Notes under the pieces: generated by a model
What the model was told of the DNA's origin: nothing
Database searches by the model: none
What the model saw: only the letters and a program-made list of their open reading frames with translations
Translations under genes and position numbers: made by a program
Origin: Cladocopium goreaui
Taxonomy: Eukaryota > Sar > Dinophyceae > Suessiales > Symbiodiniaceae
Assembly: GCA_947184155.2 (NCBI GenBank)
Contig: CAMXCT020001540.1
Span: forward strand, 1-64,000
DNA length: 64,000 bases
Direction of reading: 5' to 3'
Part shown: positions 41,545 to 59,576 of the stretch, piece by piece
Layout: each line of letters opens with the position of its first letter
Position numbering within the stretch: position 1 is the stretch's first letter

Positions 41545-41592
41545 GGCTTCGTCTGACGTGAGAAATTACAGAACCGTAACAGACACGTTACT

Positions 41593-41781: not shown

Positions 41782-43013
41782 TCATTCGGAAAAAAATTGC
41801 AGCTGTTCACAACATTTACTGAAAACCGTCCATGTTCATTCATTCAGCTTGTTCAGATGCACCGACTTGTTGTGTTTTGTTTTTGGTTTTGAAGTTTGTT
41901 TTAATTTTCGATGGCGGTCAGAATATATGTCACCACGTCGTATTGCGTACGCGTTGGTTGTATAAACTTGTTCCTTGCGTACGGTCCATTGCCTCCAAAA
42001 ATAACTGTTGCTAATCCATTCTTTCCTATTATTAGAACTACCCTCCAAAAAAAAACAATAGGATTGGTGTGGCATTTCCATTCTTTTGGTTCGGCAGAAT
42101 TGGATTCTTCATTGTGGTAATTGAGAATCAATAGGGGGACAGGATGGTGAAACAATGGGTTCAACCCCGTACTAATAAAAATAAATTGCCACCCGGATGT
42201 TTTTTTATTAGGGTCCCATCTCACAAGTTTCATTGTTTTTAACATCAAGGTATTCATTGGAATATTGCGGGAACGCTTCGAAATCGAGTTTTTTGGCAAT
42301 ATTTTATATAGATATTAAAATATTATATAGATATTAAAATAAGAGATTTCATCCTTCACAGGCGCTCTTAGCTGAAGTTTGCAACAGGTCAAGAAATCAT
42401 TGCATTCAAACATGGCAATGTAGAGATATGAGAAGTGAAACGGAGTATGCAATGCCCACCAAGGATTCTGCAACCTCTGGCACAGCCACCCGGCTAGCCA
42501 GCTGGCTCACAATTGGAGTCCGCTGTGGTTGTACAAGGGAACAGCCAATGACAGCTGGGCCGGTAGCCGGGCTGTTGAACTCCAGGGAAAAATCAAACCT
42601 CCAAAAAGAAAAACTAGCAGTAGCAGATTTTGCTAAAAACTGGTGAGGGAGCGGCTCCAAAAAGAGCACGTGGAAAACGCACCAGCAGGCGAAATAAATT
42701 CAGGTCTGTTTTTTTTTCTCTGGTTTGGCCGATGTCGCTCTAAGGGTCGGTCCTGTAATTGGTATAAGCAGATAAAACGAATTTAAACGCGTCGACTGAA
42801 ACGCAGTGGTTCCAGCTGTACAATAAAATAAGTGACAAAAAAGCTATGAACAACCACGAGCAAACAGAAACCAAGACACCAGACGACCCGCAAATCCGCC
42901 AGCCAGATTGTGTTTCGCCACAGAAACGAAAAGCGGAACAACAAGAGAAGGGGGCCGGGGCCCAACACAAAACCAAACCAACACACACGGTTGCCACTAT
43001 GGAAATTGCAGCA
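41782..43013. other. non-coding stretch up to the YR retroelement
   Basis: Nothing convincing on either strand. The last 16 bases before element B, CTATGGAAATTGCAGC, are the ones that also occur in the tandem repeat to the right of the element and define its left border. Confidence 0.4.
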
Positions 43014-43500
43014 TTGTCTTCCATGGTGGGGTCCCCAGAAGTAGTCTACAGAGGGGGGAATGGCAAATGGGCGTGTGAGCGTGGGCGTGTGAGTGCAAGG
43101 TTAGTAAAACGCAATGGATCATCCAACGACCAACTGTCAAAATTGAAACTGCCGAAAACTGCCTTCTCTCAAAAAACTGTCATTCCAAAAAAAACGACAT
43201 CTGAAATAAACATGTGCAAGTCACAAACTGCATCTGACTGAATGAATGAAAACGAAAGCCACTCGCACCAACTCTTTTTGACCAGGGGGGATTGGACATC
43301 CTGCGCTGTCTGATTGCGGTCTCTCTCAAGTCCAAGCACGCTGGAAAAGGTCCAGCAAATTGCATTGCATTGAAAACATCTCAAAGAAAATTCTATGCAT
43401 TTCTCTCCATTCATCTCTGAAACATTCATCTCTGAAACACCTGCTGCAAGTCGTCACTGGTCGCGACGCATTTCGAATGGGGCATCTGTCTCATTGCCCC
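43014..43500 (-). repeat. split direct repeat B2 (outer right end)
   Basis: 487 bp that I read as identical to 44172-44658. It forms the 3' terminus of element B. Confidence 0.93.
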
Positions 43501-43769
43501 GGTAAGGCCAAGTGATATGGTTTGCTGACAAATCGTCTAAAGTATCGTGGAGATCCACGGCCACAGCAAAGCATGTACTGCGTAGTACGCAGAAGTCCCG
43601 TATTGTAAGAAAGCTAAAGAACATGAAGTTTTGGCGTTCGCCCATACCAAAAATGGTGCTCGTCAACTGCAGCTCGAACAGTTGCTCGTAGCGATCTAAC
43701 TGTTCCTCCGTTGTAACATCAACTCGAAACTGTTGAAGTTGATTCATCACCCAGGTGCGGGCGGGTGGG
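43501..43769 (-). other. unique 269-bp segment between A2 and B2
   Basis: Present once in the window. A minus-strand frame crosses it (43882-43454) and reads LQQFRVDVTTEEQLDRYEQL and FELQLTSTIFGMGERQNFMF, which looks protein-like. In textbook split-repeat elements A2 and B2 are adjacent, so this segment is either an extra small gene of the element or an acquired insert. Confidence 0.5.
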
Positions 43770-44171
43770 CAGCAAAATTTCTGCCTTTGAGCCAGTTTTC
43801 CCAAGTGAATCCTTTTCAAATTATGTCCATGAATTTCAGCTTCCGGTGGAACTCGAAGACTGTTGTAAATAAAGCAGGTCACAAAATTTCAAACATCTTG
43901 CACTGAAAAAAGGTGAGCAACGAAATTCAAAGTGACGATATCGCAAATTAAATAACCTCGAAGAATTCAACTGCATTGATTTGTTTGGTTGTCTTGTTGC
44001 GTCCAAGTTTGGGTTCAAGAAACTCATCCACGCAACGAACAGGCGACGTATTTGCAGGCGATCGCAACAGACCAACCAATAAGCAAAACCAAGAACCAAC
44101 CCGGCACACACACGCACACGCAACGCCAGCCCCACCCCTGCAGACAAACAACTGAGGCACGCCTAAGCAGC
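43770..44171 (-). repeat. split direct repeat A2
   Basis: 402 bp, about 99% identical to A1 at 59174-59576 (for example TTTTCCC versus TTCTCCC and CAGACAAACA versus CAGAAAAAACA). Confidence 0.93.
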
Positions 44172-44658
44172 TTGTCTTCCATGGTGGGGTCCCCAGAAGT
44201 AGTCTACAGAGGGGGGAATGGCAAATGGGCGTGTGAGCGTGGGCGTGTGAGTGCAAGGTTAGTAAAACGCAATGGATCATCCAACGACCAACTGTCAAAA
44301 TTGAAACTGCCGAAAACTGCCTTCTCTCAAAAAACTGTCATTCCAAAAAAAACGACATCTGAAATAAACATGTGCAAGTCACAAACTGCATCTGACTGAA
44401 TGAATGAAAACGAAAGCCACTCGCACCAACTCTTTTTGACCAGGGGGGATTGGACATCCTGCGCTGTCTGATTGCGGTCTCTCTCAAGTCCAAGCACGCT
44501 GGAAAAGGTCCAGCAAATTGCATTGCATTGAAAACATCTCAAAGAAAATTCTATGCATTTCTCTCCATTCATCTCTGAAACATTCATCTCTGAAACACCT
44601 GCTGCAAGTCGTCACTGGTCGCGACGCATTTCGAATGGGGCATCTGTCTCATTGCCCC
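44172..44658 (-). repeat. split direct repeat B1
   Basis: 487 bp, apparently identical to B2. It abuts A2 at TAAGCAGC/TTGTCTTCC, the junction expected to be restored in the circular intermediate. Confidence 0.93.
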
Positions 44659-44808
44659 TCCTTCAGAAACTGATGCCCAATCACCACGCTGTCTTGCTGG
44701 CCAACTTCTGTCTTTTGCTCTGTTTTCCTTCAGCTAGCTTCACATCAACCTGTGTTTCACGTAAACTCATAAACTCATTGCGGGAGGCACACAACTCCCG
44801 GGAAAAAC

Positions 44809-45395
44809 TTAACGGTAAATATCATCCAAAGAAAACTCCACCCGGTTCTTCACATCAAACAAGCTATGGTCGCCATTGGTGATGGCGTCTGCTGGAACAT
44901 TTTCTTCTCGCGGCCTCCAACGAAGCCTCATGCGCACACCGTTCGCCAAGAGCTGTGATGACACCTGCATATGAACAGCCAAGAGAGGCCATTTCGTTGA
45001 CATATTCTTTTCTTGTAAAGCCTGATTGGATTTATTGTCGGTACCACCTGTTATTGCCATCCTCAAGTTCTTTGATCCACCACCCTTCTCCAAATGTCCA
45101 AACGCAAAAGAAGCAGCGTAGGAGGCCAGTAACTCCGCCGCTGTTGAGCACCACTGTGATGCGCCATCTTCTTTGAAGAGCATTGGAAGTTGTTCCGGGA
45201 AAATTTCCAAGCTGAACCCATCTTGCCAATTTTAGGTTCTCCACACCATTCTCAGTGGACCAACCAGCCAAAACAATCCTGCCACTCTCACACTTCGCAT
45301 CTGTTCTGAAAGCCTCTTTGGGCGAAAACCAAGGAGCTGTCGCATTAACCCAGTGCCCATGTTCTGGTTCAAGTTGGCTTCCATCTATAATAGTT
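44809..45395 (-). pseudogene. RNase H part of element B, detached and frame-shifted
   Basis: Reads GSQLEPEHGHWVNATAPWFS, PKEAFRTDAKCESGRIVLAG from about 45385 to 45215 in one frame and then FPEQLPMLFKEDGASQWCST, AAELLASYAASFAFG in the next, ending RWRPREENVPADAITNGD. D in RTDAKC, E in AAELLA, D in GGTDNKSN and D in ADAITN fit the four RNase H acidic positions. A one-base slip near 45196-45210 (at AAATTTTCCCGG) breaks the frame. It lacks an RT of its own and is the missing continuation of the RT at 52857-54008, cut away by element A. Confidence 0.8.
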
Positions 45396-45684
45396 ATCTA
45401 TTTATATACAATAAACAAATAACACAACACATAAAAACCTAAACGATCACCCTGCGGTTCTCGAGGCCAAATGCTTTCTCTCTCTTTTCGACTGCCGATG
45501 GTAGATCCAATTTCGAAGCAACAAAGATCTGTTTGATCCAAGCAGCAAGTTTTATCCCAATGGTCTGATGGTCATACTTTCCCCCATTTTCTATCTGACT
45601 GTTGGGATACAAACGCAGTTAATACTCCCAATAAAAAGTGTTGGATTCCGGCAGTCGATGAGAAAGAGAGAGAAAAATCATATT

Positions 45685-46968
45685 CTACGGAGGTTCCCAG
45701 GAAAGAAAGGTTTCAGGCGGATGCAAAGAGACGGATGTCTCCGGATGCCAAAGTTGATGGAGAGATATTGGAAAACGGTTGTGCAGCGCATGATTGAATG
45801 GCGGTTCACTGATAAAGTCCCAACGGCTCAGTGCGTCAGCTTCTTCATTTCGATCGCCAGAAATATGCGATAAATCCAATTCCATTCCAGAAATTGTGCA
45901 TAGCAGCGTCAACTTTTCCAAAAAATGGTTCAAAGGAGGCTTAGTAGAAAATAATTTGTTGCCACCTGCTTCAGTGCCAGTGTTATCTGTTAATGAAGGA
46001 ATCCGTAATGGAAATCTGAAGCCAGGAGAGCTGCGACTGAAAATGTACAGAATGGCTATCTGAGCCAGGGTTTCAAAGGAAGCAATGCATTTCTGCATTT
46101 CTTTGGTGACCGGAATGTCCAAGGCAGCTAAATCATTGAAAGTGAATTTTTCACTGAACCAAATAACTGTGCCGGATGGGAAATAAATAAAGCCCCCAAT
46201 CTGACATATATCAGATGAGGCCATGGCATCTGCTGCACAACGACCTGACCAGAGTTGTTTGGGACGTAGACATTTAACCAGTGAAACAGATTGCAGCCAA
46301 TCTGCATAGAGTTGCAGGACTCGATGAGAGTCAGCACTTAACGATCTGCGAACTGAGGAAGGATCACGAACTCGAAGCCACGTCCTACGTTCAGATAAAT
46401 AAATTTGATGTAAATCTGCCTTGCAAGTGACAGCTTGATGTCGAACCGCCAGCAATTTGCTTCCAATCGGGATGCCTGTGCCTGTGGGAGTTTTGAAAAA
46501 TTGTAAATCATCATCCAAGCAATCAATGACATGTTTCCAGTGTCCTGGATCAATGCTGTAATGGCTGGCAGGAATATGATATAAATCGCGATACAAAATT
46601 GGGAGCCAACATCGCATGAGCAAAAATATTTGCGTGATCCAGTTCAGCAGTCCCACCAATTTCTCAAGGGATTTCTTGGATGTCCGGGAGGATTTCCGCA
46701 TCACGGAGATATACTCCCCAAGTTTGTCAACCTTGTTTTGTGGCAAGCTGATAAATCCAGCTGTGATGTGAAATTGCCAACCAATCCATTGAACCCGCGG
46801 GCCAAACTCAGTTTTGCGCCAAGAAATAGGAATGCGCAATACCTGTGCTAAAACGCAGCACATGCTTGACATAATCCAGGCAACCTTTTCAGGAAACAGG
46901 AAAAAGAAGTCATCAACGTAGATGAATCCAGCGTGTGTCCACCACAATAAAAAGTGGATGCAGCGCAA
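45685..46968 (-). CDS. RT C-terminal half and RNase H of element A
   Basis: 427 codons. It begins inside the RT palm with YVDD (D19-D20 of this frame), then thumb/connection sequence, and RNase H with D247 (AADAMASSD), E299 (SFETLAQ), D328 (LTDNTGTEA) and D378 (NEEADALSRW). The arrangement matches DIRS-type RT-RNase H. The true protein continues from the 48839-46848 frame. The first sensible residues of this frame are NGATFSAYHWTRVGSFILRC, upstream of the ATG at 46968 and in phase with it, so the ATG is not the biological start. It overlaps the upstream frame by about 120 bp. Confidence 0.85.
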   Translation of the reverse strand: MRCIHFLLWWTHAGFIYVDDFFFLFPEKVAWIMSSMCCVLAQVLRIPISWRKTEFGPRVQWIGWQFHITAGFISLPQNKVDKLGEYISVMRKSSRTSKKSLEKLVGLLNWITQIFLLMRCWLPILYRDLYHIPASHYSIDPGHWKHVIDCLDDDLQFFKTPTGTGIPIGSKLLAVRHQAVTCKADLHQIYLSERRTWLRVRDPSSVRRSLSADSHRVLQLYADWLQSVSLVKCLRPKQLWSGRCAADAMASSDICQIGGFIYFPSGTVIWFSEKFTFNDLAALDIPVTKEMQKCIASFETLAQIAILYIFSRSSPGFRFPLRIPSLTDNTGTEAGGNKLFSTKPPLNHFLEKLTLLCTISGMELDLSHISGDRNEEADALSRWDFISEPPFNHALHNRFPISLHQLWHPETSVSLHPPETFLSWEPP

Positions 46969-48839
46969 AATGAAGCTGCCAACCCTGGTCCAATGATAGG
47001 CACTGAAAGTGGCCCCATTACTTTATAAAAATAGATGGCCCCATCTAAAGTGAATCCCAGGAGTCCGCGGTCAGATTCGCGAATCACCACCAACTTGTGG
47101 GCTGATTTGATGTCGAGGGAAAATCCCACCATAGGTTCATTGGAGTTTCTTAAAGGGTATACACGCATGACGTCCTGAGCACTCGGAAGGGTTGTCTTCT
47201 CAGGTATGCTGCACCTGTTGTTGACTCCGCAGATTGATGAGTCAACAACTAATCTTGGCGGCCTGGTGTCACTTAATGCCAGGCCTAACTTCCCAATGGC
47301 AAGTTTGTCACCAAATTCGTGTTGAGCATCTTCCAGAGTGCCATCATATTTGTAAATCCAGCCCTTTTCCAGTTCTTGGAAGACAAGGTTGCGTGTAGTA
47401 GGCAAATCAGATTCTGCAGACTGCCAGTTGGTTGAATGCACTGACAGAGGTACCGTTTCATCACTCTTATCTTCTGTGTGGGGAAAACAACCAGAAGCAG
47501 GAATATCGCCATCGAAACCAGTGGGGGCCCCTGCCAGTAACATGGGAAATAATGTTGTATCTCGATCATCCAAAATACGAGATAATGCTGCCATGATCGA
47601 AAGCTGCATGGGTTGATCCGCTCTGATTGACCAATCAGGAACCAGTCCATGAGATTGGATGAATTCATTCAAGGTGTTTTTAAATGGGATCAAATCGTCT
47701 TCTGTAAAAGGTGGTTGAGCATCCCCTGAATTGAAAAAGGATTTCATTTTTTGAATCAACCCGTTATTTAACAATAGTTTCACCCATTGCCTGCGCAGAG
47801 ATTGAAATGTGTCGGGGACAGCTCGAAAAGGTCGACTCCAGTCGGGTTCAGAAAATAAACCGCCACCATGTTCATAGCTCACCGGTAGATCACTAAGTTG
47901 TTTGATGGGAATATATTGTTGCACGGACGATAAATCCAAAAGTCGTCCAGAATCCGGAGAGCAGAGTGGTGATATGATGTCCGCTATGGCAGAACACATC
48001 TCAGACGGATATTCAGCCGTTGCCCGACTCTTGTAAGATCCATCTGGATTCCGGGCTCCTGCAATTTGCTCGTGTGTGCCCGGAGGATGGCCACATACTG
48101 TACCCAGGGATTTCATGGCTGGGTATGTACATGCAAGAAGCCAGCTTTTGTACCAGTTACGATTGTAAGCACAGGCAGGAAAATTAACCAAAAATAGAGC
48201 ACAGAATTTTATGAATCGTCGTACCAGTGGTTCAAGCCAAGCCATGGAATTGGTGGGTTGCTCCAGGTGTCCGTGGCCTCCTGCTGCAAAAATTAGCTCC
48301 AAACACAATACGCTGCGAGCCATCAAGGTGTGGCTAGATTGAACTTTCTCCAAATCAGAAGGGCATAAGTTTGGTATGCCGTCCAAAAATTGTGGTGTAC
48401 GCAATGCTGGAGGTCCGCCTGGTTGAAGCTTAAGACGGCTGTACTCCCCACAATTCGGTGCTGCCGCACCATACCCTACGAGTCCAGAAGCACAGATGCG
48501 GAGCAGAGGTTCAAAGAAATTATTATCCAAAAGATCCATTTTTGCATCGATCAATTTATCCACCGGAAAACATTTGCATCCACGCTCGAGCATGGCTGAT
48601 GTCAGTGGGTGGCCTGCTCCTGCACAAATATCCAGAAAAATTCTGGATCCTTCAAGTGATGAAACATCCACAGAGGTTTGAACCGAATGCGGAATTGGCA
48701 AAGGAGGATGTGAAACTACTGGATCTGTCAAAGGGTCAACCATTGTTGAATCCTTGAGGATATCGTCCTGCGATCCAGTCTGTGCCATGGGCTGGTCCGT
48801 TGTATGTGAAACCATTGATGCCTCTGCATTATCATCCAA
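46848..48839 (-). CDS. methyltransferase-like plus RT N-terminal half of element A
   Basis: 663 codons starting 3 bp after the gag stop. Residues 67-240 look like a DNA methyltransferase fold: FLDICAGAGHPLTSAMLERG resembles the AdoMet-binding motif I and AAPNCGEYSRLKL (C130) sits where cytosine-C5 enzymes have their Pro-Cys motif. Residues 300-600 are RT fingers and palm, with PPRLVVDSSICGVNNRC and GFSLDIKSAH (catalytic D576). After residue about 605 the frame leaves the RT sequence, and the correct RT continues in the frame of 46968-45685. The change falls at 47013-47024 (AAAGTAATGGGG). Either one base was lost or a -1 ribosomal shift is used. Confidence 0.82.
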   Translation of the reverse strand: MDDNAEASMVSHTTDQPMAQTGSQDDILKDSTMVDPLTDPVVSHPPLPIPHSVQTSVDVSSLEGSRIFLDICAGAGHPLTSAMLERGCKCFPVDKLIDAKMDLLDNNFFEPLLRICASGLVGYGAAAPNCGEYSRLKLQPGGPPALRTPQFLDGIPNLCPSDLEKVQSSHTLMARSVLCLELIFAAGGHGHLEQPTNSMAWLEPLVRRFIKFCALFLVNFPACAYNRNWYKSWLLACTYPAMKSLGTVCGHPPGTHEQIAGARNPDGSYKSRATAEYPSEMCSAIADIISPLCSPDSGRLLDLSSVQQYIPIKQLSDLPVSYEHGGGLFSEPDWSRPFRAVPDTFQSLRRQWVKLLLNNGLIQKMKSFFNSGDAQPPFTEDDLIPFKNTLNEFIQSHGLVPDWSIRADQPMQLSIMAALSRILDDRDTTLFPMLLAGAPTGFDGDIPASGCFPHTEDKSDETVPLSVHSTNWQSAESDLPTTRNLVFQELEKGWIYKYDGTLEDAQHEFGDKLAIGKLGLALSDTRPPRLVVDSSICGVNNRCSIPEKTTLPSAQDVMRVYPLRNSNEPMVGFSLDIKSAHKLVVIRESDRGLLGFTLDGAIYFYKVMGPLSVPIIGPGLAASFCAASTFYCGGHTLDSSTLMTSFSCFLKRLPGLCQACAAF

Positions 48840-48842
48840 GAG

Positions 48843-50057
48843 TCAGTGAGGTTGTTGCTGATGATCAAATGCACTGTGTAGCTGTGCACACGCCTGTCCT
48901 GATGATAATGGATGGGCGCACAGGTGACTGAACTTGCAAGTGTCACCCTTCTGACATTTCCCGGATTGGTATTGCATGCAAAGCTGATGTCGTTTGCCTT
49001 GAACAGTGGCTTCGGTGACCCAAGTAGGACGAGAAGTAGTGTCGCCCTTTTTTCCGCCCTGTTTTGACTTCCCTTTGGATTTCCCACGACCTTTGGCCGA
49101 CACTGGGGCCGCTGTAGAGCTGGATGTGGATGTTGGACGAACTGATATCTTCGGCCGAGGTTGGAGTAGAGAAGCCATATCTGATCGCAGGTGGGTCACT
49201 TCATGCAAAGCGTTGTCCAACGTAAATTTCTGGTCAATCACCAAGTCATGAATCATTTGCCAGAGGGCTTTGTCAGCTGCTTGAGATTCCAGGACATTCG
49301 GTGGCCTGAGTCCCGAATCGGAGTCCAGGCGTTGTGTGAGGAACCCCATGAATTTCAAGGTGTAAGCTCGAAGTCGTTGCAAATGACAGGCCCCTACCAG
49401 AGCTAACGCAGTGTTATGCACCTCCAGCATGTTGCGGATGGCGTTCACGCCCATACCTTGATTGTTGATGTCCAAGGATGGAGGCTCATCCCAAATTAAT
49501 TGATGGAGTTGAAGACCTTCAATTTTCGGGATCTTTGGGCGTTGATAAATGACCATATCTTCCATTCTGGATTGTGTCATTCTGAATTTCCAGGGAATCC
49601 AGCGGTATTCCTGTTTGGAATGCTGATGGTGTGCAAGCGATAATAGTCTTGTCGATGGCATGGTCTCCATCGTAAGAACTTCACTAGGGTAATCTTCCAA
49701 AAATTGCTTCTTGAGTTTTGAAACTGTTGAGGATTGAATCTTGGGAGCAAACGACTCCGCCCAAGAACCCTCCTGCGAGACACCCGCTGATGGTGCTGCC
49801 GCTCCATCTGTTGATTCACGCACCGTAGACACAGTCTCCGGTTGAAGACGCTGCCACGCTACTTTCAAGTTTGCACGCTGAACCAGGGGAATCGGTTGAT
49901 CTGAGATTTCAGCCCAGATGTCATCTGTAAATCCTGCTTTGGAATCCACTATGGCTGCAAAGTTTTGTGAGTTCCAGCCACCTGAAATCAAATGAGACGA
50001 TAAGGCAGGATCCACGCCATTCTCTGCCAAATGATCTTCAAGATCGGGCAAAGCCAT
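48843..50057 (-). CDS. gag-like protein with CCCH zinc finger (element A)
   Basis: 404 codons, starting MALPDLEDHLAENGVD. Most of the chain is helical without a recognised motif. A basic Ser/Lys/Gly-rich linker precedes a C-terminal CCCH finger (C360-x7-C368-x5-C374-x3-H378, CMQYQSGKCQKGDTCKFSH). Its place between recombinase and methyltransferase/RT, the same as in element B, and the nucleic-acid-binding finger at the C-terminus indicate a capsid/nucleocapsid role. The finger type differs from the CCHC knuckle of LTR elements. Confidence 0.75.
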   Translation of the reverse strand: MALPDLEDHLAENGVDPALSSHLISGGWNSQNFAAIVDSKAGFTDDIWAEISDQPIPLVQRANLKVAWQRLQPETVSTVRESTDGAAAPSAGVSQEGSWAESFAPKIQSSTVSKLKKQFLEDYPSEVLTMETMPSTRLLSLAHHQHSKQEYRWIPWKFRMTQSRMEDMVIYQRPKIPKIEGLQLHQLIWDEPPSLDINNQGMGVNAIRNMLEVHNTALALVGACHLQRLRAYTLKFMGFLTQRLDSDSGLRPPNVLESQAADKALWQMIHDLVIDQKFTLDNALHEVTHLRSDMASLLQPRPKISVRPTSTSSSTAAPVSAKGRGKSKGKSKQGGKKGDTTSRPTWVTEATVQGKRHQLCMQYQSGKCQKGDTCKFSHLCAHPLSSGQACAQLHSAFDHQQQPH

Positions 50058-50412
50058 GAACCCCCAAGAGGAAGGTCGAAACGCAAGCTAACGCAAAGCA
50101 AAACGAAATAGCATGACTCAAATTGAATCTGTGAACTCCTGAAAGTATCTTACAGTTCAAGTTGTTGACATGAACACATGTATGCCTTCAAAGTTGCAGG
50201 TGATGAGTGGAAACAAAATTTGATATGATTAAAGCCTTTTTTGGTTTTTCTGGTTGGGCTTGAACCGTTAAGTCACGCCAAAGAAACATTTTTACCTGAC
50301 AGGGATGCCGTGCTCTGTGCAACAAACTTGAATTGTGACAAATGTGGTGAAATGCATTAAATCAAGCTGAGTCTGCTGCCGCAGGTTTTTTGACCATTGA
50401 AGAGGGAGTCTA
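50058..50412. other. spacer between recombinase and gag of element A
   Basis: 355 bp without a frame of interest. The equivalent spacer in element B is 265 bp (56875-57139). Promoter or splice-leader acceptor sites for gag could lie here, but I see no clear signal. Confidence 0.4.
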
Positions 50413-52341
50413 TCACTCTCCTAAAGCTGATACCTGTTGCCATCTTTTGAAGCAAGCTGCATGCCGACACATACCAAATGTCGGATTGAGCTGCGTGTCA
50501 AACACGCAATTGTCACGGGGCAGTCTGGCTCCACATGCTGCTCGGAAATGTTGGTCATTCCATTTGGGTTGGCAGCAATCATCTGTCACTAGCATCATGT
50601 GTTGAATCCGGGTAACTCGAGCAACAACCAACTCCTCTGCGTCACCAGGAGTGACTTCTTCGGTATCTGAGCCAGAAGCAGAAGATGAGGATGAGCTACT
50701 CGAGGATCCTGATGATTCCACTGACTCCGACATTGCCTGAGGAGCCGTGGTTGGATCATGCGAAGCCGGAATTCCTTCCAAAATTGGGTCAGTCGTGGCA
50801 TTGTTGAATTCGAAAAACTTCCAGTTATATGTTTGATACCCTTTTTTGAAACGCTCCAGCTGCACTGCCGGTTCCTGGATGGGTCGCTGAGATCCTCTGT
50901 GAAGAGGTGTCACAAACCTGTGACCACCTTGAACCTGCTGGATGAGGGTATCCTGTAGCGCCAACTGACCTGCTGTGTCATCCCGTGAGTAAAGCCGCAT
51001 GCTACCTTGACGATGATGACCTTGTAAATGACGCTGTTCTTCTGTAACCAAGCCCTTTTGTGCCAACTGATTTGACCAACTCAATGTGGTGGTCTTCAAT
51101 GAATGCAAAGTATAATCAGTAGGGTTGGCTGAGGCTGGCACCACTGAATTCTTCCAGGGAAGTGTGCAAAAATATCGAAGCCAGTGCAAAGCTTGGGAGT
51201 ATGGCATGGGCACCAATGGACATGAGAATCCGTCTCCATGTGTCATAGGCAGCAAAAAATCGCTTTCTGATGGGGTGTCATGCGGATAAGACCAAATGAT
51301 ATCCAATGACGTGAGCCACTGCGCAACCCAAGACCAGCTGCCGTGTGAAAGGAATCCACGGGCCTGGATGGCCCAAGGTTGTCCTGATTGTGAAGTTTTG
51401 GTCCGATAACATGAACCTCGCAACGCAGTGATGCACCATGACAATGATTTCAATGAAACGCGTTGTCCGTCAGCAAAACGAAGGCCACCCCATAATAAGC
51501 AAAGGAAACCGCCCAATATCACTTGTTCTTGAACTGAGCATTCCTTCATAAGGAGGCGTCTTTCCCACTGCACTACCAGAAACAAACTCAAAGGAATTGA
51601 TTCACGTCGTTCATGATTACTTGGATTGAAAAAAGAGTTGACAATCGGGTCATACAAGCTTTGCCATTCTGATATCATCAAAAGTTTCTGAGCCCATCGC
51701 AAAGCCTTGATGGCTGTGGAAGCACCAAAACCCCACTCGGAGTGTTTCCCTTCATGAGCGATTTGCAGCAAATCTGACAAACGATGACATCCAATGTCCT
51801 TCCAATTCCATGCGAAGTCCAATAAAATGCTGTAAATGCACTGCAATGTATTGATGTATTTGAACAAAGTAGAAGGTGCATATTTTTCCAGTAACCGTTG
51901 GCAATGCGTCTCAAATTGAGGGGATTGATGATATTCCTGCCAAATAGATGACAAACTGCCCACAGTGTTGATGAGAATCATCCAACGAGCGAGCAAATCC
52001 CTTGGAATGTTGGAGGCTCGTGCCACCAATGAACCTGCTTTGCATCCACGTGGTGCTGAAACATGTCGAGAAGACTTATGTTTACTGCTGTCCTGTGGCA
52101 TGTTGACTGGAGCATCCACTGTTGGCTCAGGACCCCACTGTCGCGCTGTCGGCGTTGGAGGAGTCGTCAAAGAAACTGGTCTGAAAAATTCAGGTGCCGG
52201 TCGACCTCCTCGTTTAAGAGGTTGTTCAAGACTGGTAGCCCTTCTACAAACTGGAATTGGAATAGTTTTGGGGGCACTTCGTTTCTTTGGAGTAGGTGCT
52301 GAAATCAGAATCCAGTCATCTGTCACACTGTCAACATCCAT
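50413..52341 (-). CDS. tyrosine recombinase of element A
   Basis: 642 codons. The N-terminal 90 residues are Pro/Lys/Arg-rich. Residues 95-260 form a helical SAM-like/core-binding region (LLEKYAPSTLFKYINTLQCI). The catalytic domain shows R288 (GGLRFADGQR), H413-x-x-K416 (LHSLKTTTLSW), H442/H443 (QGHHRQGS) and the nucleophile candidate Y451 (MRLYSRDD). This is the R...HxxR/K...H...Y set of tyrosine recombinases, with Lys replacing the second Arg. Towards the C-terminus is a Ser-rich stretch (about 545-560), then a Cys/His cluster (FRAACGARL…FGMCRHAACFKRW) that may bind zinc. It is the first gene of the element, 476 bp downstream of the spliced-leader relict. Confidence 0.85.
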   Translation of the reverse strand: MDVDSVTDDWILISAPTPKKRSAPKTIPIPVCRRATSLEQPLKRGGRPAPEFFRPVSLTTPPTPTARQWGPEPTVDAPVNMPQDSSKHKSSRHVSAPRGCKAGSLVARASNIPRDLLARWMILINTVGSLSSIWQEYHQSPQFETHCQRLLEKYAPSTLFKYINTLQCIYSILLDFAWNWKDIGCHRLSDLLQIAHEGKHSEWGFGASTAIKALRWAQKLLMISEWQSLYDPIVNSFFNPSNHERRESIPLSLFLVVQWERRLLMKECSVQEQVILGGFLCLLWGGLRFADGQRVSLKSLSWCITALRGSCYRTKTSQSGQPWAIQARGFLSHGSWSWVAQWLTSLDIIWSYPHDTPSESDFLLPMTHGDGFSCPLVPMPYSQALHWLRYFCTLPWKNSVVPASANPTDYTLHSLKTTTLSWSNQLAQKGLVTEEQRHLQGHHRQGSMRLYSRDDTAGQLALQDTLIQQVQGGHRFVTPLHRGSQRPIQEPAVQLERFKKGYQTYNWKFFEFNNATTDPILEGIPASHDPTTAPQAMSESVESSGSSSSSSSSSASGSDTEEVTPGDAEELVVARVTRIQHMMLVTDDCCQPKWNDQHFRAACGARLPRDNCVFDTQLNPTFGMCRHAACFKRWQQVSALGE

Positions 52342-52816
52342 TGAAGACCAAATTCAAGATGTGGCTGAGGCCGGAGACTGAGCTAAACTCGGAGTGTCCA
52401 CTGTTCGGAAGGTCACACAAGGACGATATACGGAAATGCAAGCAATGCTGAAATGGTACAGATCCAGATTCAAAGGTCCATGTACTGGAGGTTCAAAAGG
52501 CCAGTAGTCTAATGGAGGAATGTACAGAAAAGCAAAAATGATTGTACGAAGCTCTGCGAATTGAATCGATTGGTCAGTGAAAATCAACTGAAAATTTCGA
52601 TGGCCCACCACCGCTGGCCGAAGCATGAAGCGCCCCGCAAGCCCGAGAATGCAAACTAACGAGTTGACATGAAATGTTGTACTGTGAAGTGCCACAATTG
52701 ACAGAATCTTGGAATGAATGAACGCAAAAAAAGCAAAACCGTGTTGCTGAATGTTGAAGCTGAGAAAACATGAAGCAGTTAAACAAGAAAATAAGCAAAA
52801 AACGCATGAAAGCCAA

Positions 52817-52830
52817 CTTGAGCCAAAATG
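52817..52830 (-). promoter_or_regulatory. relict dinoflagellate spliced-leader sequence
   Basis: The minus strand reads CATTTTGGCTCAAG, identical to the last 14 nt of the 22-nt DinoSL carried by dinoflagellate nuclear mRNAs. The upstream bases no longer match (GTGGTAA instead of the CCGTAGC part). A genomic SL remnant marks the 5' end of a trans-spliced mRNA that was reverse transcribed and reinserted. A chance 14-nt match in 128 kb of strand is unlikely. It lies directly upstream of the element A recombinase and exactly where element B is interrupted. Confidence 0.8.
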
Positions 52831-52856
52831 TTACCACATTAGTAAATGAAGTCCCA

Positions 52857-54008
52857 CTACTCCAAAACATTAGTGAACAAGTACACTACACGTCTCTGAA
52901 GTTGTTCCTTCAAGAACCTCAAAGTGACGTAAACCAGCACGGGCACCCGCATCACCGTGCCTCTTGCAAGAACAGAGGACCAAGCAAAAAGGGGTGCCAT
53001 GAATGGCTTCAACCACGTTACTACCCTTGCCACAAAGGATAGTCTGCCAGTGAATTCTATGAATGCCCGGCCCTGCACCATCCAACCGTTACGCTCCAAC
53101 GTGTCGATCCATTGCAAGATCCACTCAGCTCTCTTGGTTGAGATACCAGCCACATGTCTGTCATATTCCAAACGGTACCCAACATAGTCCACTGAAAGAC
53201 CCCCTTTGAACTTCCTGTAAGAAAAGGGGGTTCCCATAACCTCATACGCCAGAATGCTCAACCACATGGTGACAAATTTATCAGGCCCTAGGCATAGCAA
53301 GTGAAGATCGTCCACGTAGGCCAGCTGCATAGACCAGCGTCGTCCCAGAACTCGGAGGACCCATCTTCCCACGCAACCAAATAGCCTAGTCCACCAATAA
53401 GCTGCACTTGAGACCCCAAAGGTCCCCACACAATTCAACCAAAGTGTGCGCGATTCAGCGCTGGATCTGCATGCCAGCCTGGCCCAGTCTGCTTTCCTAA
53501 TCAGTACACATCTATGCGCCTGTGCAATGTCTGCTGACAAACAAAATGCTGACTCCTTAGATTCCGCTGCCATGGCAACAAGCTCAATCACTTCCTCAGG
53601 GCCCGGAACTTCCAGGCGATCAAGTATGCGAATCTTGTTGTTCAGGTTTATGCCATGGGTCCCGTCATGAAGAGGTCTGATGGTGTTGTCGGGCTTCTGG
53701 ATAGCACCCATTGCTGCAACCAAGACTGCATCTGCGCCAAACTCCTGCTTCGCTTCCGCAAGAGTTGTAGGAACCATCCTACCAAGCTGTTCGTCTTTTC
53801 TGAAGTGATCCTCAAGTTGATCGGAGGACATCTCTGCAGTTGCATAGTTTTTCATGTCCGGCTGAAACTCTGATGTCCAACTGTCTGAACTTCTCCCGCT
53901 TTCTGAAGACCTGGGGTGTCCGTGGGAGTTCACGTTCCACTCCAACAGGGACTCCCTTTGAGAAACACTCTTCACCCTGCACCAAAATCTCCCAATCTGG
54001 ATCCCCAA
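52857..54008 (-). pseudogene. reverse transcriptase of element B, truncated by element A
   Basis: 383 codons. From about residue 70 it is RT: KQEFGADAVLVAAMGAIQKP, fingers with IRPLHDGTHGINLN, palm motif A FCLSADIAQAHR and motif C AYVDDLHLL (D233-D234). The chain ends RFLKEQLQRRVVYLFTNVLE just before the junction with element A, so thumb and RNase H are missing (they lie at 44809-45395). Its first about 65 codons overlap the methyltransferase frame, and the genuine reading probably comes from that frame with a shift at about 53812-53900. RT family: DIRS/PAT-like. Confidence 0.82.
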
Positions 54009-55464
54009 GTTTGCATAACGACTCGGCCAGGAGATGAAGGTAAAATTGTTGCCTGTATGGACAAGACAGCAAAGTATCTTCCTCTCCTGGCCTCAACAGT
54101 GATGCTATCTTGCGCCTCAATCCCTGTAGCTTGTCCTGATCAAAGGGTGAGCTGAGGTGATGACCAAGAGCCAGCTTGAATGCCTCCTTACGCAAGTCTC
54201 CTATTTCTTCTGTAAGAAATTCAAGTAGTAAAGATGCCACCTGCTCTGCATGGTTTGTCGCATCTTCACTGGCCAACTTGTTTCTTGCACCCGGCATCCA
54301 ACGTCCCGGAGAGCACAGTCCAAAACCGTCTGTAAATTCTCTGTGGCAGTTCTCATACCTACAAATAATGGGCTGTCCAAAACAAGCTGAAGTTGCTGGG
54401 TCAAAGGTTTCTGCATCTTGCTGTCCCAGGTCCTCTGGGCTCCCTGGTTGCTCATCTCCAGATGATATAACTATCTCTGATGCTGCTGCTGCGTCCATTG
54501 CTATTGCTGGAGTTGGGTTTTCCCCGAAAGAAGAAGGAGATGTTGAAGGATGAGGGCCAATCTGCACTGTTGATGTCTCTGCTGACATCACCGTAGCATG
54601 ATCTGTAGGAGAGGCTTGAAATGTTGAAGAGGAAGTCGATGCCGCTGAAGCATGCTCCCCCTGCATCGCCATGCAAAGTGGCAACGCTGACACCACATCC
54701 AAAGCTATAGCCTCACACAAGGCCTCCGGGTAGGCCGCTGAGCCAGCTGTTTTCCATTGTTGCAATTCAATGTTGAAGCCCAAAAGGGGCTCATGAAATT
54801 CATGTGGACATCGGCCCAATGGCCCTGCATAAAAACCATTGTCATCAAACACCGGCCATTGTAGCCCATATTGTTGGCAAGAGGGTAGGTTTGACATCAG
54901 CCTCGTGGGTTTGGAAGTGCTTGCCCCATAAACGCATTGATGTATCGCCCATGAAGCTGCTGATGTCAACTCTGCCAACTCCCTGATCAATGGAAGTTGC
55001 CAAATTGAGGCTGGGATATCCCCTGCCGCTGTCTTCCCTAAATCCTCCGGGTGTTCACACCAGTAAAATTTGCTTTGCAAATGCATTCTTCTTGCCGCTT
55101 CTGCACATTGGAATATAAAGAAATTTGCCGTTTGGGCCACTTCTTGGTCGCTTGACCTCAACCATGAAAACCCCAAAGGCCATGTCGACGATCTAAGAGG
55201 TCTGGGTCCCCCATGCTTGAAATGATGTCGCGCCCGGCTGAAAGTGTTGCAGGGCGGTGACCACAAAAGCACATCTACTTTGCCCTGGTCAATGTCTGCA
55301 TATAAATCGTCCCACAGCTTTGTCTTTGATAAATCATGTGAATGATGCTGTTCCAAATCAAGCTCTCTTAATTCAAGGTGAAACTGATCCTTGGCCAGCC
55401 GTTGCAATTGTTGTCTAATGTCACCGCGCCTTGATGCGCCCGCAAAAAGATACACCACTCGCAA
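53812..55464 (-). CDS. cytosine-C5-methyltransferase-like protein of element B
   Basis: 550 codons starting 24 bp after gag. The N-terminus MRVVYLFAGASRRGDI resembles the AdoMet-binding motif I and VLLWSPPCNTFSRARHHF (C72) the catalytic Pro-Cys motif IV of C5 DNA methyltransferases. EHPEDLG follows, a plausible counterpart of the motif VI Glu. The last 250 residues are helical and acidic and lead towards the RT, which continues in another frame. In DIRS elements a different (Dam-like) methyltransferase follows RNase H, so a C5-like domain ahead of RT is unusual. Its role may be modification of element or host DNA, but this is inference. Confidence 0.7.
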   Translation of the reverse strand: MRVVYLFAGASRRGDIRQQLQRLAKDQFHLELRELDLEQHHSHDLSKTKLWDDLYADIDQGKVDVLLWSPPCNTFSRARHHFKHGGPRPLRSSTWPLGFSWLRSSDQEVAQTANFFIFQCAEAARRMHLQSKFYWCEHPEDLGKTAAGDIPASIWQLPLIRELAELTSAASWAIHQCVYGASTSKPTRLMSNLPSCQQYGLQWPVFDDNGFYAGPLGRCPHEFHEPLLGFNIELQQWKTAGSAAYPEALCEAIALDVVSALPLCMAMQGEHASAASTSSSTFQASPTDHATVMSAETSTVQIGPHPSTSPSSFGENPTPAIAMDAAAASEIVISSGDEQPGSPEDLGQQDAETFDPATSACFGQPIICRYENCHREFTDGFGLCSPGRWMPGARNKLASEDATNHAEQVASLLLEFLTEEIGDLRKEAFKLALGHHLSSPFDQDKLQGLRRKIASLLRPGEEDTLLSCPYRQQFYLHLLAESLCKLGDPDWEILVQGEECFSKGVPVGVERELPRTPQVFRKREKFRQLDIRVSAGHEKLCNCRDVLRST

Positions 55465-55488
55465 TACTGGCAGCTCTCCGTCCGTTTG

Positions 55489-56874
55489 TCAGGTTTTGTT
55501 CGGTGGTGTCTCCGCAGCTCCTTTCTGCATCATGCCCTGGTAGTGCTGCCACATCGGATGCGATTTGCCGCATCCACGAACTCTGCAAATGTGAACACGG
55601 TTGCAACCTCCTGTGCATCCCTGCGCATTGTAAGCAAAGCAGATCTGTTTGTTGTCATCTGTAAATGAAACCAAAGAGTGCTCAGAGTTTCCCTTGCCTG
55701 TTCTCTGTTTCGATTTTCCTTTGTTGCCCTTCTTTCCACCTCCCTTGTGCCACTTTTGTGGCGGGCCTTGGTAGTTGGACCCTTCAGTCCTCCTCCAACT
55801 GCGGTTGCCTCCCAATGAAGGCTCCTCAGATCTGCCTGACCTCCCTTGCAAGGCAATGGGACTTGTGAAGTACTGCTCTTTGAGTTGTGCATCTGAGCAC
55901 ACCTCTTCCAAACATTCTCTCAAGGCTCTACCCTGTCTAAACGCCCTCTTGATGGCCTCCTTGCGTAGTTCGTATTCATATGACAACATCACGCTCCAAG
56001 GTGGTCGCAATGTGACCATCTCTGAGCTCCCCGCTGCTGCACCTGGTCCTGGAATTTTCAAAAGATAGCACTTGTCACCTAGCAGGTAGTTGGTGCACTT
56101 CATCCAGTCATCAGGTGTGAGCCCTTGCATCATCGGATTGTTGCGGTACTTGGCAGCAAGGTAACACCATGTATTGCCTTCAACTCTGAGGATGGTGCGG
56201 AGTTCCTCAGTGCCCTGCGGGAGCTGACCCTTCTGTCTGCTCTTGACAATTCTCACATGACCTGCACTATCCAGAGTTGTCTGAATGCCCATTGTCTTTG
56301 CAGTCTTTTTACTGGTTACTTCGGTCAGGTAGGAAGCCATAGGTTCGTGAGCTTCCAACTCCTCGATCTTCGTTGACAAGTAATCATCCGAAGGCTCAAA
56401 AGTCTCTTCAATTTCACCATGGGTTGCTACATATGCTGCTCTCATTGCCGCTCGATCTGTCTGGGTGACAGGCCGCGTGACGCCCAAGAGACGTGCTTCG
56501 GCCTTCAACTCTGCTTGTTTTGATGCATACTCCTTAGAGGCCTCCCAAGCAGCTACCACTCCAGCTACGGCTGCACGATTCTGCAAGTTATTCTCTTCGA
56601 CCTGCAAATCATCACGTAGTGCCTGTCTGACACCTTGCCTTGTATCTGCAATTGCACTGAAGCGTCTAAGTTGCGTGAAAACTTGAGTCAAATTGTATTG
56701 CAGTGCAAGTGGCACTCCGTTCTCCTGCAGTATGAAGGCCAAATCGCCTTCCACCCGGTCATGGATGTAGGCCTTCATGTCAGCCTCTGTTATCCCTGCC
56801 GGTGCATTCATGGCTGCTAAGTCTCTCAGCTTTCTGAGCCTACACAGCGCTGGGAATCTCAAACTTCTTCCCAC
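55489..56874 (-). CDS. gag-like protein with CCCH zinc finger (element B)
   Basis: 461 codons, starting MGRSLRFPALCRLRKLRDLA. A second ATG (MNAPAGITEADMKAYIHDRV) 22 codons in may be the real start. The helical body contains FILQENGVPLALQYNLTQVF. The tail is Lys/Gly-rich and carries Cys/His motifs: C412-x7-C420-x3-C424-x3-H428, followed by C430, C435 and H438. It has the same position and design as the element A gag, although the sequences are only distantly alike. Confidence 0.72.
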   Translation of the reverse strand: MGRSLRFPALCRLRKLRDLAAMNAPAGITEADMKAYIHDRVEGDLAFILQENGVPLALQYNLTQVFTQLRRFSAIADTRQGVRQALRDDLQVEENNLQNRAAVAGVVAAWEASKEYASKQAELKAEARLLGVTRPVTQTDRAAMRAAYVATHGEIEETFEPSDDYLSTKIEELEAHEPMASYLTEVTSKKTAKTMGIQTTLDSAGHVRIVKSRQKGQLPQGTEELRTILRVEGNTWCYLAAKYRNNPMMQGLTPDDWMKCTNYLLGDKCYLLKIPGPGAAAGSSEMVTLRPPWSVMLSYEYELRKEAIKRAFRQGRALRECLEEVCSDAQLKEQYFTSPIALQGRSGRSEEPSLGGNRSWRRTEGSNYQGPPQKWHKGGGKKGNKGKSKQRTGKGNSEHSLVSFTDDNKQICFAYNAQGCTGGCNRVHICRVRGCGKSHPMWQHYQGMMQKGAAETPPNKT

Positions 56875-57139
56875 GCGTCTTGAAACTGTTTCTCACAATT
56901 TTCCAAACTGATCAACCTAACTTCATGTCATTCCTGGTCTTTTCTCCAGGCTTGTCTGTGCAATCTCTAACATGACATGGGTGCGCTCGACTTCAATCTG
57001 AAAATGCAAACTGAAAACGCAAAACCTGAACCTACCTCCAAACATCCAAAACACAACTCGGCACCACTGAACTGCGCAGCAAGTTTTCCACTTTTGCGGA
57101 ACAAGTGTGCAAATGAAACATATGCTGAATGCTTTGCCT

Positions 57140-59146
57140 TCAGTCACTTGAGTCGGAACTGTCTGAGCTTGACGACGCCTCTTCTTCACCCTTCAACTTT
57201 GGTTTGCACAACTTGCAAACTGCGTCAGCTACATCACCAGTAATGCTGTAAACAGGTTGAGTGACAAGACAACGTTCCTGACGCACCGCACATGATTTTG
57301 AAACATGCAAGCGTCGAAAAAATGTCTTCCGAGAAATGGTGATGAAATAAGGTGCTTCTGGCAAGCTGTCATCATTTTGAGGATCCGGCTCTCCCTGAGT
57401 TGGAGCGTTTTCCATTCTCGCAGCAACTGGTCCTACCTCCAACAAAGGAAAGGTTCCTCCCAGGTGCCAAGCTCCTAAATTCAATGACCAAACCATGACA
57501 TTGTGCCTACGTGCAGTTGTGATGGGTCCTGCATTGACCCTTACTGCAAAGGCCTTGACCCGTTCCATGAGCTCCTCCTCGACCAAGCCTGGTGAAGGGG
57601 TTCCTTCAAGCAGGAAACGGCAAACATCTTTTTGGACCCGATGAACAACTTGTCTTGACGTCAAAACATAATCTTGAGAGCCATGCTTAGAATAACTCCA
57701 CCTACCAAGATAGTCACGACTCTCCTTTGGGATTTGTGCTGCTGCAGCCCAAGACGGCAACGTATGTCGTGCACTATGTCCAGTCCAAAATGAAGCCATC
57801 TCTGGTGAAATCAACAAATTACCATGGTTGAGTGCCAGGCCGCCACCACGTCGCACCACCGTCGGTAAAGTAAGGAGAAGCCTCCTCAACATGGTCGCCA
57901 ATCCTTCAGGTTCCAAGAAATTCGGCCCTGATTTCATCCAATCATCTGAAAATGAAACTGCAAAGAAATCCCTCTGAAAACTCACTTCATCATCTTCTAA
58001 AAGATCCATGCCCAATTTCAACCAGTCCACACCAGTCAAACTGACCTCACGTGCAATGAAACCGTGCAACTCCCCTACAGGCTTGCCAGGTCCACTAGTC
58101 TTAGTCCGGCGCAAAACGAACTTGAGGCCCAGCTGTGAAAGTTCCAGTGAAGATGGATCGACGTTCTGTAAATCATCACAACGCATCGTTCCCCAGAGCA
58201 AAGGCAAAAGCACAAATGAATAAAACCTCTGTCCAATCGGTGTGGTGAGATTATCCAAAACCAACTCTGAGCTCATCTCGATTGCTACTGTGTACAAGTC
58301 CGCCTGTCTCTTTGGCGGTGCATCACGGCTGAGCTCTGCTGTCCAAGCTTTCACTGTCTCCAGCCACAATCGATCTCCAGAAAGCCTATGTTCCGTGGGC
58401 ACCTGCCCCACCAACTCAAGCAACGACAATGTGGTATGTATGGACATGGGAACCGTCTTACCCATTGGCTGCACCTCATTACGCTCCTCAAGATACTGAA
58501 TCAGCTGTGCCACACTTTCAGGCCATGGTTTGCCTGTTGTAACCACGAACCAGTCCCTGACACGCTTCCAAGCTTTTGCACGATTGCGCAGTGTCTTTGA
58601 CCGCCGCGCACCAAATGCTCTCACCCATGCCGTGTTGACATTTGCCAGACCATTGAAAGAAGCCACAGCAGGAAGTTTTGATTCAGTGATAAACTCAGCC
58701 AAGACCAAAGCCCATTTCTTCTTCGCTAATTCCTCTGCATCTGACCTTGCAGTGCTGCTCGTTTTTGCCCTCTTAGCCAAACGACTTTCCAAAGCTGCCA
58801 AGCCCAAAGTGGGACTACCTGTAACAATGCTCTCATAGTTATCTGCCATCGTTGACACTAGACCAGACTGGTCCAACTGCTTCCCAAACTCAAGCCTATC
58901 CCTGACACCAAACAACTGCATCCTCTTCAACCTACGGTGAGAGGTTGCTTGCCAGTCGAACAATGCCTGCGCAATGGCCTCACGGCGGGCCACACCATAG
59001 CTATTTCCCAGTGCATCCTCGACCAGGTTTCTCGCACCCTCCAGATCATCAAATGCAGTTGCAACTTGTAATGCAGTTGGAAAACAAGGCTTCAATGCCT
59101 TTACCAAAGAAGCATCAATCCTATCCAGTTCAGTCCAGTCATCCAT
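57140..59146 (-). CDS. tyrosine recombinase of element B
   Basis: 668 codons starting MDDWTELDRIDASLVKALKP, 28 bp inside A1. A core-binding region (about 160-260) includes TLRNRAKAWKRVRDWFVVTT. The catalytic set is complete: R322 (GTMRCDDLQ), H457-S-A-R460 (WTGHSARHTLPSW), W483 (LGRWSY) and Y493 (GSQDYVL), a standard R-HxxR-W-Y arrangement. The C-terminus holds a possible zinc site (LHVSKSCAVRQERC … DAVCKLCKP) and a Ser/Asp tail. It presumably inserts the circular DNA copy at short matching sequences such as the GCAGC core at the element borders. The frame is intact. Confidence 0.88.
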   Translation of the reverse strand: MDDWTELDRIDASLVKALKPCFPTALQVATAFDDLEGARNLVEDALGNSYGVARREAIAQALFDWQATSHRRLKRMQLFGVRDRLEFGKQLDQSGLVSTMADNYESIVTGSPTLGLAALESRLAKRAKTSSTARSDAEELAKKKWALVLAEFITESKLPAVASFNGLANVNTAWVRAFGARRSKTLRNRAKAWKRVRDWFVVTTGKPWPESVAQLIQYLEERNEVQPMGKTVPMSIHTTLSLLELVGQVPTEHRLSGDRLWLETVKAWTAELSRDAPPKRQADLYTVAIEMSSELVLDNLTTPIGQRFYSFVLLPLLWGTMRCDDLQNVDPSSLELSQLGLKFVLRRTKTSGPGKPVGELHGFIAREVSLTGVDWLKLGMDLLEDDEVSFQRDFFAVSFSDDWMKSGPNFLEPEGLATMLRRLLLTLPTVVRRGGGLALNHGNLLISPEMASFWTGHSARHTLPSWAAAAQIPKESRDYLGRWSYSKHGSQDYVLTSRQVVHRVQKDVCRFLLEGTPSPGLVEEELMERVKAFAVRVNAGPITTARRHNVMVWSLNLGAWHLGGTFPLLEVGPVAARMENAPTQGEPDPQNDDSLPEAPYFITISRKTFFRRLHVSKSCAVRQERCLVTQPVYSITGDVADAVCKLCKPKLKGEEEASSSSDSSDSSD

Positions 59147-59173
59147 GCGCGCTGTAAGTCCCTAGCCTAAATC

Positions 59174-59576
59174 CAGCAAAATTTCTGCCTTTGAGCCAGT
59201 TCTCCCAAGTGAATCCTTTTCAAATTATGTCCATGAATTTCAGCTTCCGGTGGAACTCGAAGACTGTTGTAAATAAAGCAGGTCACAAAATTTCAAACAT
59301 CTTGCACTGAAAAAAGGTGAGCAACGAAATTCAAAGTGACGATATCGCAAATTAAATAACCTCGAAGAATTCAACTGCATTGATTTGTTTGGTTGTCTTG
59401 TTGCGTCCAAGTTTGGGTTCAAGAAACTCATCCACGCAACGAACAGGCGACGTATTTGCAGGCGATCGCAACAGACCAACCAATAAGCAAAACCAAGAAC
59501 CAACCCGGCACACACACGCACACGCAACGCCAGCCCCACCCCTGCAGAAAAAACAACTGAGGCACGCCTAAGCAGC
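59174..59576 (-). repeat. split direct repeat A1 (outer left end)
   Basis: 403 bp, about 99% identical to A2. It forms the 5' terminus of element B and probably carries its promoter. The outer end ...CCTAAGCAGC adjoins the flank AAGGAGAGAC. Confidence 0.93.

Follow-up and report, generated by a model that had tools for sequence, protein, structure and literature searches.

The window analyzed here, 64,000 nt of Cladocopium goreaui DNA (GCA_947184155.2, contig CAMXCT020001540.1, positions 1-64,000 of the forward strand), contains a genuine retrotransposon, element B, which entered the genome of this coral-symbiont alga recently and carries its own tyrosine recombinase (YR) and a predicted DNA-methylating enzyme. 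It occupies positions 59576-43014 of the minus strand, the strand of all features given below, in the layout A1, genes, B1, A2, B2, where 59576 is the outer end of A1 and 43014 that of B2, the same end points as in a preliminary description of this locus. Its genes, also as described there, run in the order YR, gag, C5-type methyltransferase (MT), RT and RNase H (RH), on which ORF positions and tblastn placement agree. This unusual order is a lineage trait that has been published in outline before. Taking these features jointly, element B is very probably a YR retrotransposon with split direct repeats from a Cladocopium-like dinoflagellate, belonging to a lineage with the usual order YR-gag-(MT-RT-RH polyprotein) and a circle-and-exchange cycle; a second element (element A) was nested into this copy later.

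Split repeats, junction and probable insertion site

The left repeat A1 (59174-59576, extended with blastn) aligns to A2 (43770-44171) with 3 differences in 403 columns, and B1 (44172-44658) is identical to B2 (43014-43500) over 487 bp, which bears out the split-repeat arrangement proposed for this element. The exact repeat cores are 43799-44144 and 59203-59548 for the A copies and 44172-44658 and 43014-43500 (487 bp) for the B copies. B1 and A2 abut with no gap, and A2 and B2 are separated by a unique spacer of 269 bp (43501-43769), a second copy of which was absent from the repeat scans. Among the elements examined here, split repeats were seen in one copy only, namely element B of the window.

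Judging by its flanks, element B seems to have entered a local repeat, with GCTGC as the core of the insertion site. The right flank GCTGCAATTTCCATAG (42997-43012) equals two tandem units past the left end of the element, within a left flank (59577-59841) that consists of the target tandem repeat and holds unoccupied units at 59626-59641 and 59807-59822; GCTGCAATTTCCATAG has 3 matches in the window versus 0 in each of 100 shuffles. The insertion chemistry of YR retrotransposons has mostly been inferred so far, and the short common GCTGC core provides a testable integration site for such an element.

The most likely cycle would begin with a transcript that starts in A1 and is translated and reverse transcribed. 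Base pairing of the A and B repeats would then yield a cDNA circle with one B/A junction, kept in the integrated copy as the observed B1/A2 junction, which would reproduce the circle junction. At the junction core, GCTGC, the Cre-like YR would swap strands with identical target bases, placing the core at both ends, where it is seen in the flanks. The N-terminal C5-MTase of Pol, as its predicted fold and conserved catalytic residues suggest, may methylate cytosines of the new DNA and thereby supply a self mark in a CG-methylated genome. Element A, from a related lineage of the same order, would have landed afterwards between the RT and RH of element B.

Coding regions of element B and the nested element A

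YR-B (57140-59146) is an open ORF of 668 aa carrying the R-K-HxxR-W-Y signature of tyrosine recombinases, and R322, K349, H457, R460, W483 and Y493 are present in 37 of 37 aligned rows. Its predicted structure matches Cre/Xer/Flp folds, supporting a Cre-like YR; none of the 37 rows matches any Pfam family at E≤0.1. The putative gag-B (55489-56874, 461 aa), likewise an open ORF, contains a Lys/Gly-rich stretch and a C-terminus rich in Cys and His. Pol, by contrast with these open ORFs, is interrupted by nested element A and has three or more breaks of frame. It comprises an MT-B ORF (53812-55464; C5-methyltransferase domain at about 55458-54640, linker after it), RT-B with a YVDD motif (52857-54008; located by conserved blocks and by tblastn with P0093 and P0094, the B coding stopping near 52893 at the nested insertion), and RH-B (45364-44809), which together with the C-terminal tail of Pol-B covers 44684-45364 in shifted frames and was recovered by tblastn with P0094 in three pieces of 87.5, 95.5 and 95.6% identity. 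Element B thus contains both the RT and the RNase H of a split-direct-repeat YR retrotransposon. RVT_1 (RT) matches 7 of the 35 B-set members at E≤0.1, P0219 falls just under the cut-off (E 1.7e-6), the A-type Pol profile matches 8r0s_A with E 2.2e-9, and RNase HI matches are weak (E 0.03-0.1).

Homology to element B ends at 52893 and restarts at 45364, and the entire insert between RT-B and RH-B (45365-52892) is element A, a second and diverged element. The preliminary description had recognized its shared gene order but did not stress its position inside element B. It encodes YR-A (50413-52341, 642 aa; aligned by hhalign with the YR-B profile over 193 columns at probability 94.8 and E 4.9e-8), gag-A with a CCCH zinc finger (48843-50057; zf-CCCH PF00642, E 1.1e-4, 22.5 bits versus a cut-off of 20.5), a single ORF of MT-A and the N-terminal part of RT-A (46848-48839; MT-A to MT-B profile, E 1.1e-19), and, in a shifted frame, the remainder of RT-A (YVDD) with RH-A (45685-47022; RT-A to RT-B, E 2.9e-20; RH-A to RH-B, E 4.2e-11). 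The A and B Pols are colinear in a profile comparison (probability 100, 847 columns), and gag-B and gag-A share 36% identity over 50 aa (E 0.001). By eye, YR-A has HxxK where YR-B has HxxR. The repeat scan found no split repeats of element A, though those of its host element B are nearly identical; the 320 nt of its 3′ end fold as a strong hairpin.

Gene order in relatives and in known YR retrotransposons

The recombinase-first order holds beyond this locus. Among 240 Pol matches scanned, all 215 listed proteins that hold both domains have MT ahead of RT, and YR comes first in all three gene models that combine YR with Pol domains: P0012 (YR-RT-RH by profile, with gag pieces by eye), P0043 (YR-MT) and P0298 (YR-MT-RT, with a YR match of just 23.8 bits and, on visual inspection, gag separating YR from MT). 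The preliminary description likewise regarded the order as a lineage trait.

Ngaro elements have YR after RT/RH, in the order gag-RT-RH-YR, and PAT elements have a DIRS-type MT located after RH. Both resemble element B in their A1-(ORFs)-B1A2B2 split direct repeats and in their YR, RT and RH. Ngaro, which is without MT, was rejected because element B has YR first and an MT, and a PAT-like assignment because the MT of element B is of the C5 type and precedes RT, with YR first. VIPER/TATE elements, with Gag-like, YR and RT/RH ORFs and RT in ORF3 (PMC6681497), also share split direct repeats and a YR ORF ahead of the RT/RH ORF; however, they carry no MT, and in element B YR precedes gag. DIRS1-like elements likewise contain YR, RT, RH and a methyltransferase domain, but in the outlined DIRS1 order the MT follows RH (PMC3266345). 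Unlike element B, DIRS1-like elements have inverted repeats, an internal complementary region and a Dam-like (N6-adenine type) MT after RH; no inverted repeats of at least 40 nt (exact seed 14) were found in 41000-62000, where direct repeats were found instead.

The preliminary description suggested that this may be an undescribed dinoflagellate YR superfamily. That the architecture is undescribed is not supported, because VIPER/TATE have YR before RT (PMC6681497), and the outline of repeats, DNMT in Pol and shuffled YR/Pol order is already contained in the account of SymbioDIRS-Dnmt3 elements of Symbiodinium (de Mendoza et al., 2018; PMC5890265). As outlined there, these elements have A-coding-B-A-B repeats, a C5-DNMT sharing the Pol ORF with RT, and YR on a separate ORF, and fall into two structures between which the order of integrase (YR) and Pol is shuffled. 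Element B shares the Symbiodiniaceae host, the repeats, the separate YR ORF and the cytosine DNMT with RT in one Pol ORF, and its lineage is closest in build to this group. The chance that elements A and B represent one of the two published structures, so that only the copy is new, is considerable, though short of even. The same host group, repeats, domain fusion and shuffled YR/Pol order speak for it. On the other hand, the group was detected with PF00145 and drawn with PF00589, according to its description (PMC5890265), and the MT and YR of elements A and B are too diverged for these Pfam models: PF00145 does not recognize the DNMT of element B, reaching E≤0.1 in 2 of the 35 members and staying below its cut-off, and none of the 37 YRs is matched by a Pfam family. 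Moreover, the two structures differ in order as described, while A and B are identical in it, so that at most one structure fits both. The same account infers independent Dnmt3 acquisitions for the two structures and reports DIRS elements lacking DNMT (PMC5890265), whereas MT-A and MT-B are homologous and occupy the same place; the elements scored as lacking DNMT could hold a diverged domain. These comparisons set elements A and B against the published description only.

It had also been proposed that the order arose by circular permutation, the linear form being cut at another B/A junction so that YR, formerly at the 3′ end, came to stand at the 5′ end. The idea fits the position of YR relative to Ngaro, since YR-gag-RT-RH is a rotation of gag-RT-RH-YR once MT is left out. 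The place of the junction relative to YR does vary, because the internal repeats of nematode-form Pat1 and Kangaroo lie between MT and YR in the published outline (PMC4157794). However, rotation leaves MT before RT unexplained, VIPER/TATE (gag, YR, RT/RH) exhibit YR moves that are no rotation, and an intermediate order was not found here; a moved linearization point is thus an unlikely source of the order. That the order is an artefact, produced by overlap or rearrangement of two elements, can be set aside with near certainty: although two elements are truly nested at the locus, the order of B is complete outside the insert and that of A inside it, YR also comes first in independent gene models, and 160 of the 240 listed Pol proteins have MT-RT-RH in one protein.

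A diverged methyltransferase at the front of Pol

Most CGs of Symbiodinium genomes are methylated, and these genomes contain hundreds of retrotransposon-borne methyltransferases, as summarized in PMC5890265. The MT of element B is predicted to adopt a Rossmann MTase fold, which supports a C5-MTase. This agrees with the preliminary assignment, as do the catalytic residues mostly kept in relatives with an MT match: the motif IV Cys in 102 of 113 B-type and 101 of 117 A-type proteins, and the motif VI Glu in 104 of those 113 and 110 of those 117, respectively. Foldseek alone gave no match to the MT model at E≤0.001, and its top rows were unrelated. The best PF00145 match in the MT-B set reached E 0.023 and 14.6 bits (cut-off 22), and PF00145 matched neither the element A ORF of the window nor the A-type proteins P0219 and P0298. 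The strongly diverged enzymes of element B look like a branch missed by standard searches. The CG observed/expected ratio of its main coding part (0.553) lies within the range of the six other stretches that were measured, 0.528-0.752, and accordingly gives no sign of self-methylation in element B.

A homologous MT in two deep lineages, with its catalytic residues mostly kept and its scores below the Pfam cut-off, suggests on sequence grounds one older acquisition and is possibly new. It is possible, though less likely than not, that dinoflagellate YR retrotransposons include a recombinase-first clade in which a C5-MT fused to the N-terminal end of Pol is ancestral. This MT would have been acquired once before the A/B split and have drifted past standard detection with its catalytic residues kept. 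Dinoflagellate elements classed as "DIRS elements lacking DNMT" would then frequently possess such a domain, and some relatives would have added a second nucleic-acid-modifying domain, of 2OG-dioxygenase-like type. If an old, widespread clade does bear a C5-MTase missed by standard searches, both the number of elements taken to carry methyltransferases and the idea that DNMT-free forms are ancestral need revising. The divergence of MT correlates well with that of RT among B-type proteins (rho 0.77) but only moderately among A-type proteins (rho 0.45).

Structure, insertion and state of element B

Element B occupies the minus strand from 59576 to 43014 in the order A1, genes, B1, A2, spacer and B2, and its preliminary description as a retrotransposon with the tyrosine recombinase (YR) gene first was sound. 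A1 (59576-59174, minus) differs from its partner A2 (44171-43770, minus) at 3 of 403 columns, B1 (44658-44172, minus) and B2 (43500-43014, minus) are identical over 487 bp, and a unique minus-strand spacer of 269 bp separates A2 from B2; the length and identity of both pairs rule out chance. In the usual model for Ngaro/PAT elements, as given in PMC6681497, the repeats are nearly identical at the time of insertion. Under this model element B would be young, because its split repeats are nearly identical.

The sequence across the left end of element B is CTCTCCTT-GCTGC-TTAGG and that across its right end is GACAAT-GCTGC-AATTTCCATAG; within the element, the B1|A2 junction is GACAA-GCTGC-TTAGG. 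The window holds three copies of the unit GCTGCAATTTCCATAG (one in the right flank, two in a tandem array past the left end), and none of 100 shuffled sequences contains it. Since it is found on both sides, element B most likely landed in one such unit, and the five-base core GCTGC is common to the circle junction, the target and both ends. A shared core is predicted for YR integration from a circle, for which we infer the exact strand exchange; relative to the nearest unit, the right end has one additional T and the left end one T fewer, both without explanation. The tandem repeat itself (59577-59841), of CAAGCCTCGAGG-type units, is probably the target.

The YR-B and gag-B reading frames are open, and the polyprotein Pol-B, which joins a C5-methyltransferase (MT), reverse transcriptase (RT) and RNase H (RH), is broken by the nested element A and at least three frame breaks. 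Intact relatives exist. The related protein P0095 (98% identity across 72% of the Pol-B query) keeps MT and RT in a single frame and terminates at the same insertion point, which argues against an assembly accident in the window, though P0095 may derive from the same species.

Element A and the gene order of both lineages

In two close relatives of element B (P0093 and P0094), RH directly follows RT. Homology to these proteins ends at 52893 and resumes at 45364, and the intervening element A carries YR-A, gag-A with a CCCH finger scoring above the Pfam cut-off, MT-A fused to RT-A, and RH-A. Profile comparison matched MT-A to MT-B (E 1.1e-19), RT-A to RT-B (E 2.9e-20), RH-A to RH-B (E 4.2e-11), YR-A to YR-B (probability 94.8, E 4.9e-8) and the whole Pol over 847 columns (probability 100); a control comparison of MT-A with RT-B gave no match (E 0.42). 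The gag proteins share 36% identity over 50 aa (E 0.001). Unrooted FastTree trees, each built from 28 rows of the A set and 27 of the B set, part the two sets with support of 0.926 for MT, 1.0 for RT and 1.0 for RH. Both lineages thus share these genes and their order. The three domains have similar mean pairwise identities, at 0.51 (MT), 0.52 (RT) and 0.51 (RH) in the A set and 0.46, 0.56 and 0.51 in the B set, and MT and RT divergence correlate with rho 0.77 in B and only 0.45 in A.

Domain scans, with profiles made from the very proteins scanned, assigned MT-RT-RH to 107, MT-RT to 6 and RT-RH to 7 of the best 120 of 575 Pol-B relatives; the best 120 of 139 Pol-A relatives comprised MT-RT-RH (53), MT-RT (48), MT only (15), RT only (2), RT-RH (1) and YR-MT-RT (1), and the 92 YR relatives YR only (90), YR-RT-RH (1) and YR-MT (1). 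Among the matches listed, MT precedes RT in 215/215 proteins that contain the two domains, and all three gene models joining YR to Pol domains start with YR: P0012, P0043 and P0298, the last with a weak YR match (23.8 bits). Together with the order common to A and B, this makes recombinase-first order very probably a lineage trait, as had been proposed. By eye, gag follows YR in P0012 and P0298 (both Cladocopium goreaui), and the longest contig is equal in size to the base in three YR/Pol pairs (116330, 282116 and 101777), which suggests YR-Pol linkage, short of proof. All relatives with an organism name are from Cladocopium or Symbiodinium; P0012 is the best named match to YR-B (98% identity over 28% of the query).

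A repeat scan found no split repeats of element A. Its last 320 bases (45365-45684) are predicted to form a strong hairpin, perhaps a MITE-like insertion, and its last 20 bases inversely match a stretch 68 bases inside its left end.

Published parallels and the methyltransferase

The proposal that this architecture is undescribed fails, as a 2018 paper had already outlined its features. According to PMC5890265, SymbioDIRS-Dnmt3 of Symbiodinium resembles element B in its A-coding-B-A-B repeats, a DNMT in Pol with RT, and YR on a separate ORF. The same paper reports "two distinct structures," which differ in Pol domain order and have a shuffled integrase/Pol order, are distantly related and gained Dnmt3 independently; DIRS without DNMT also exist, and the RT aligns badly to Pfam. 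VIPER/TATE elements (Gag-like, YR and RT/RH ORFs, with RT in ORF3) have YR before RT/RH and, in some copies, split repeats (PMC6681497), and PAT elements vary in internal repeats and YR orientation (PMC4157794). Among the open-licence papers examined, PMC5890265 is the sole one to treat dinoflagellate YR retrotransposons; PMC12721341 concerns Oxyrrhis viruses.

What is added here is a homologous C5-methyltransferase in the same place in two lineages, below the Pfam threshold and with catalytic residues mostly kept. If these lineages were among those scored DNMT-free, this would be at odds with DNMT-free forms as ancestral. By eye, the motif IV cysteine is replaced in P0106 (a Pol relative) and P0043. 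In P0103, P0106, P0107, P0113 and other Pol relatives (1154-1435 aa), MT and RT are separated by an additional domain in which H373, D375, H435 and R444 are invariant (alignment A4, 13 rows); it gave no Pfam or PDB profile match and by eye looks like a 2OG-Fe(II) dioxygenase.

Other features of the window

A Copia-like RT/RH ORF (by eye; RVT_1 only E 0.26) at 62161-63999 (minus) is truncated by the window end, and its C-terminal part, with FVEFCC...SCPCASGSP, is possibly another methyltransferase-like domain. An RNase H-like fragment (by eye) at 40975-41565 (minus) matched none of 15 A- and B-type proteins at E<=1e-3. A Copia-type LTR retrotransposon at 32677-40776 (minus) has a single 2425-aa ORF with RVT_2 under the cut-off and a CCHC knuckle, and the 171-bp repeats at its two ends are identical. 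At the window start, direct repeats are densely arrayed over 108-1936, a stretch with low GC, strong G-over-C skew and overlapping ORFs.
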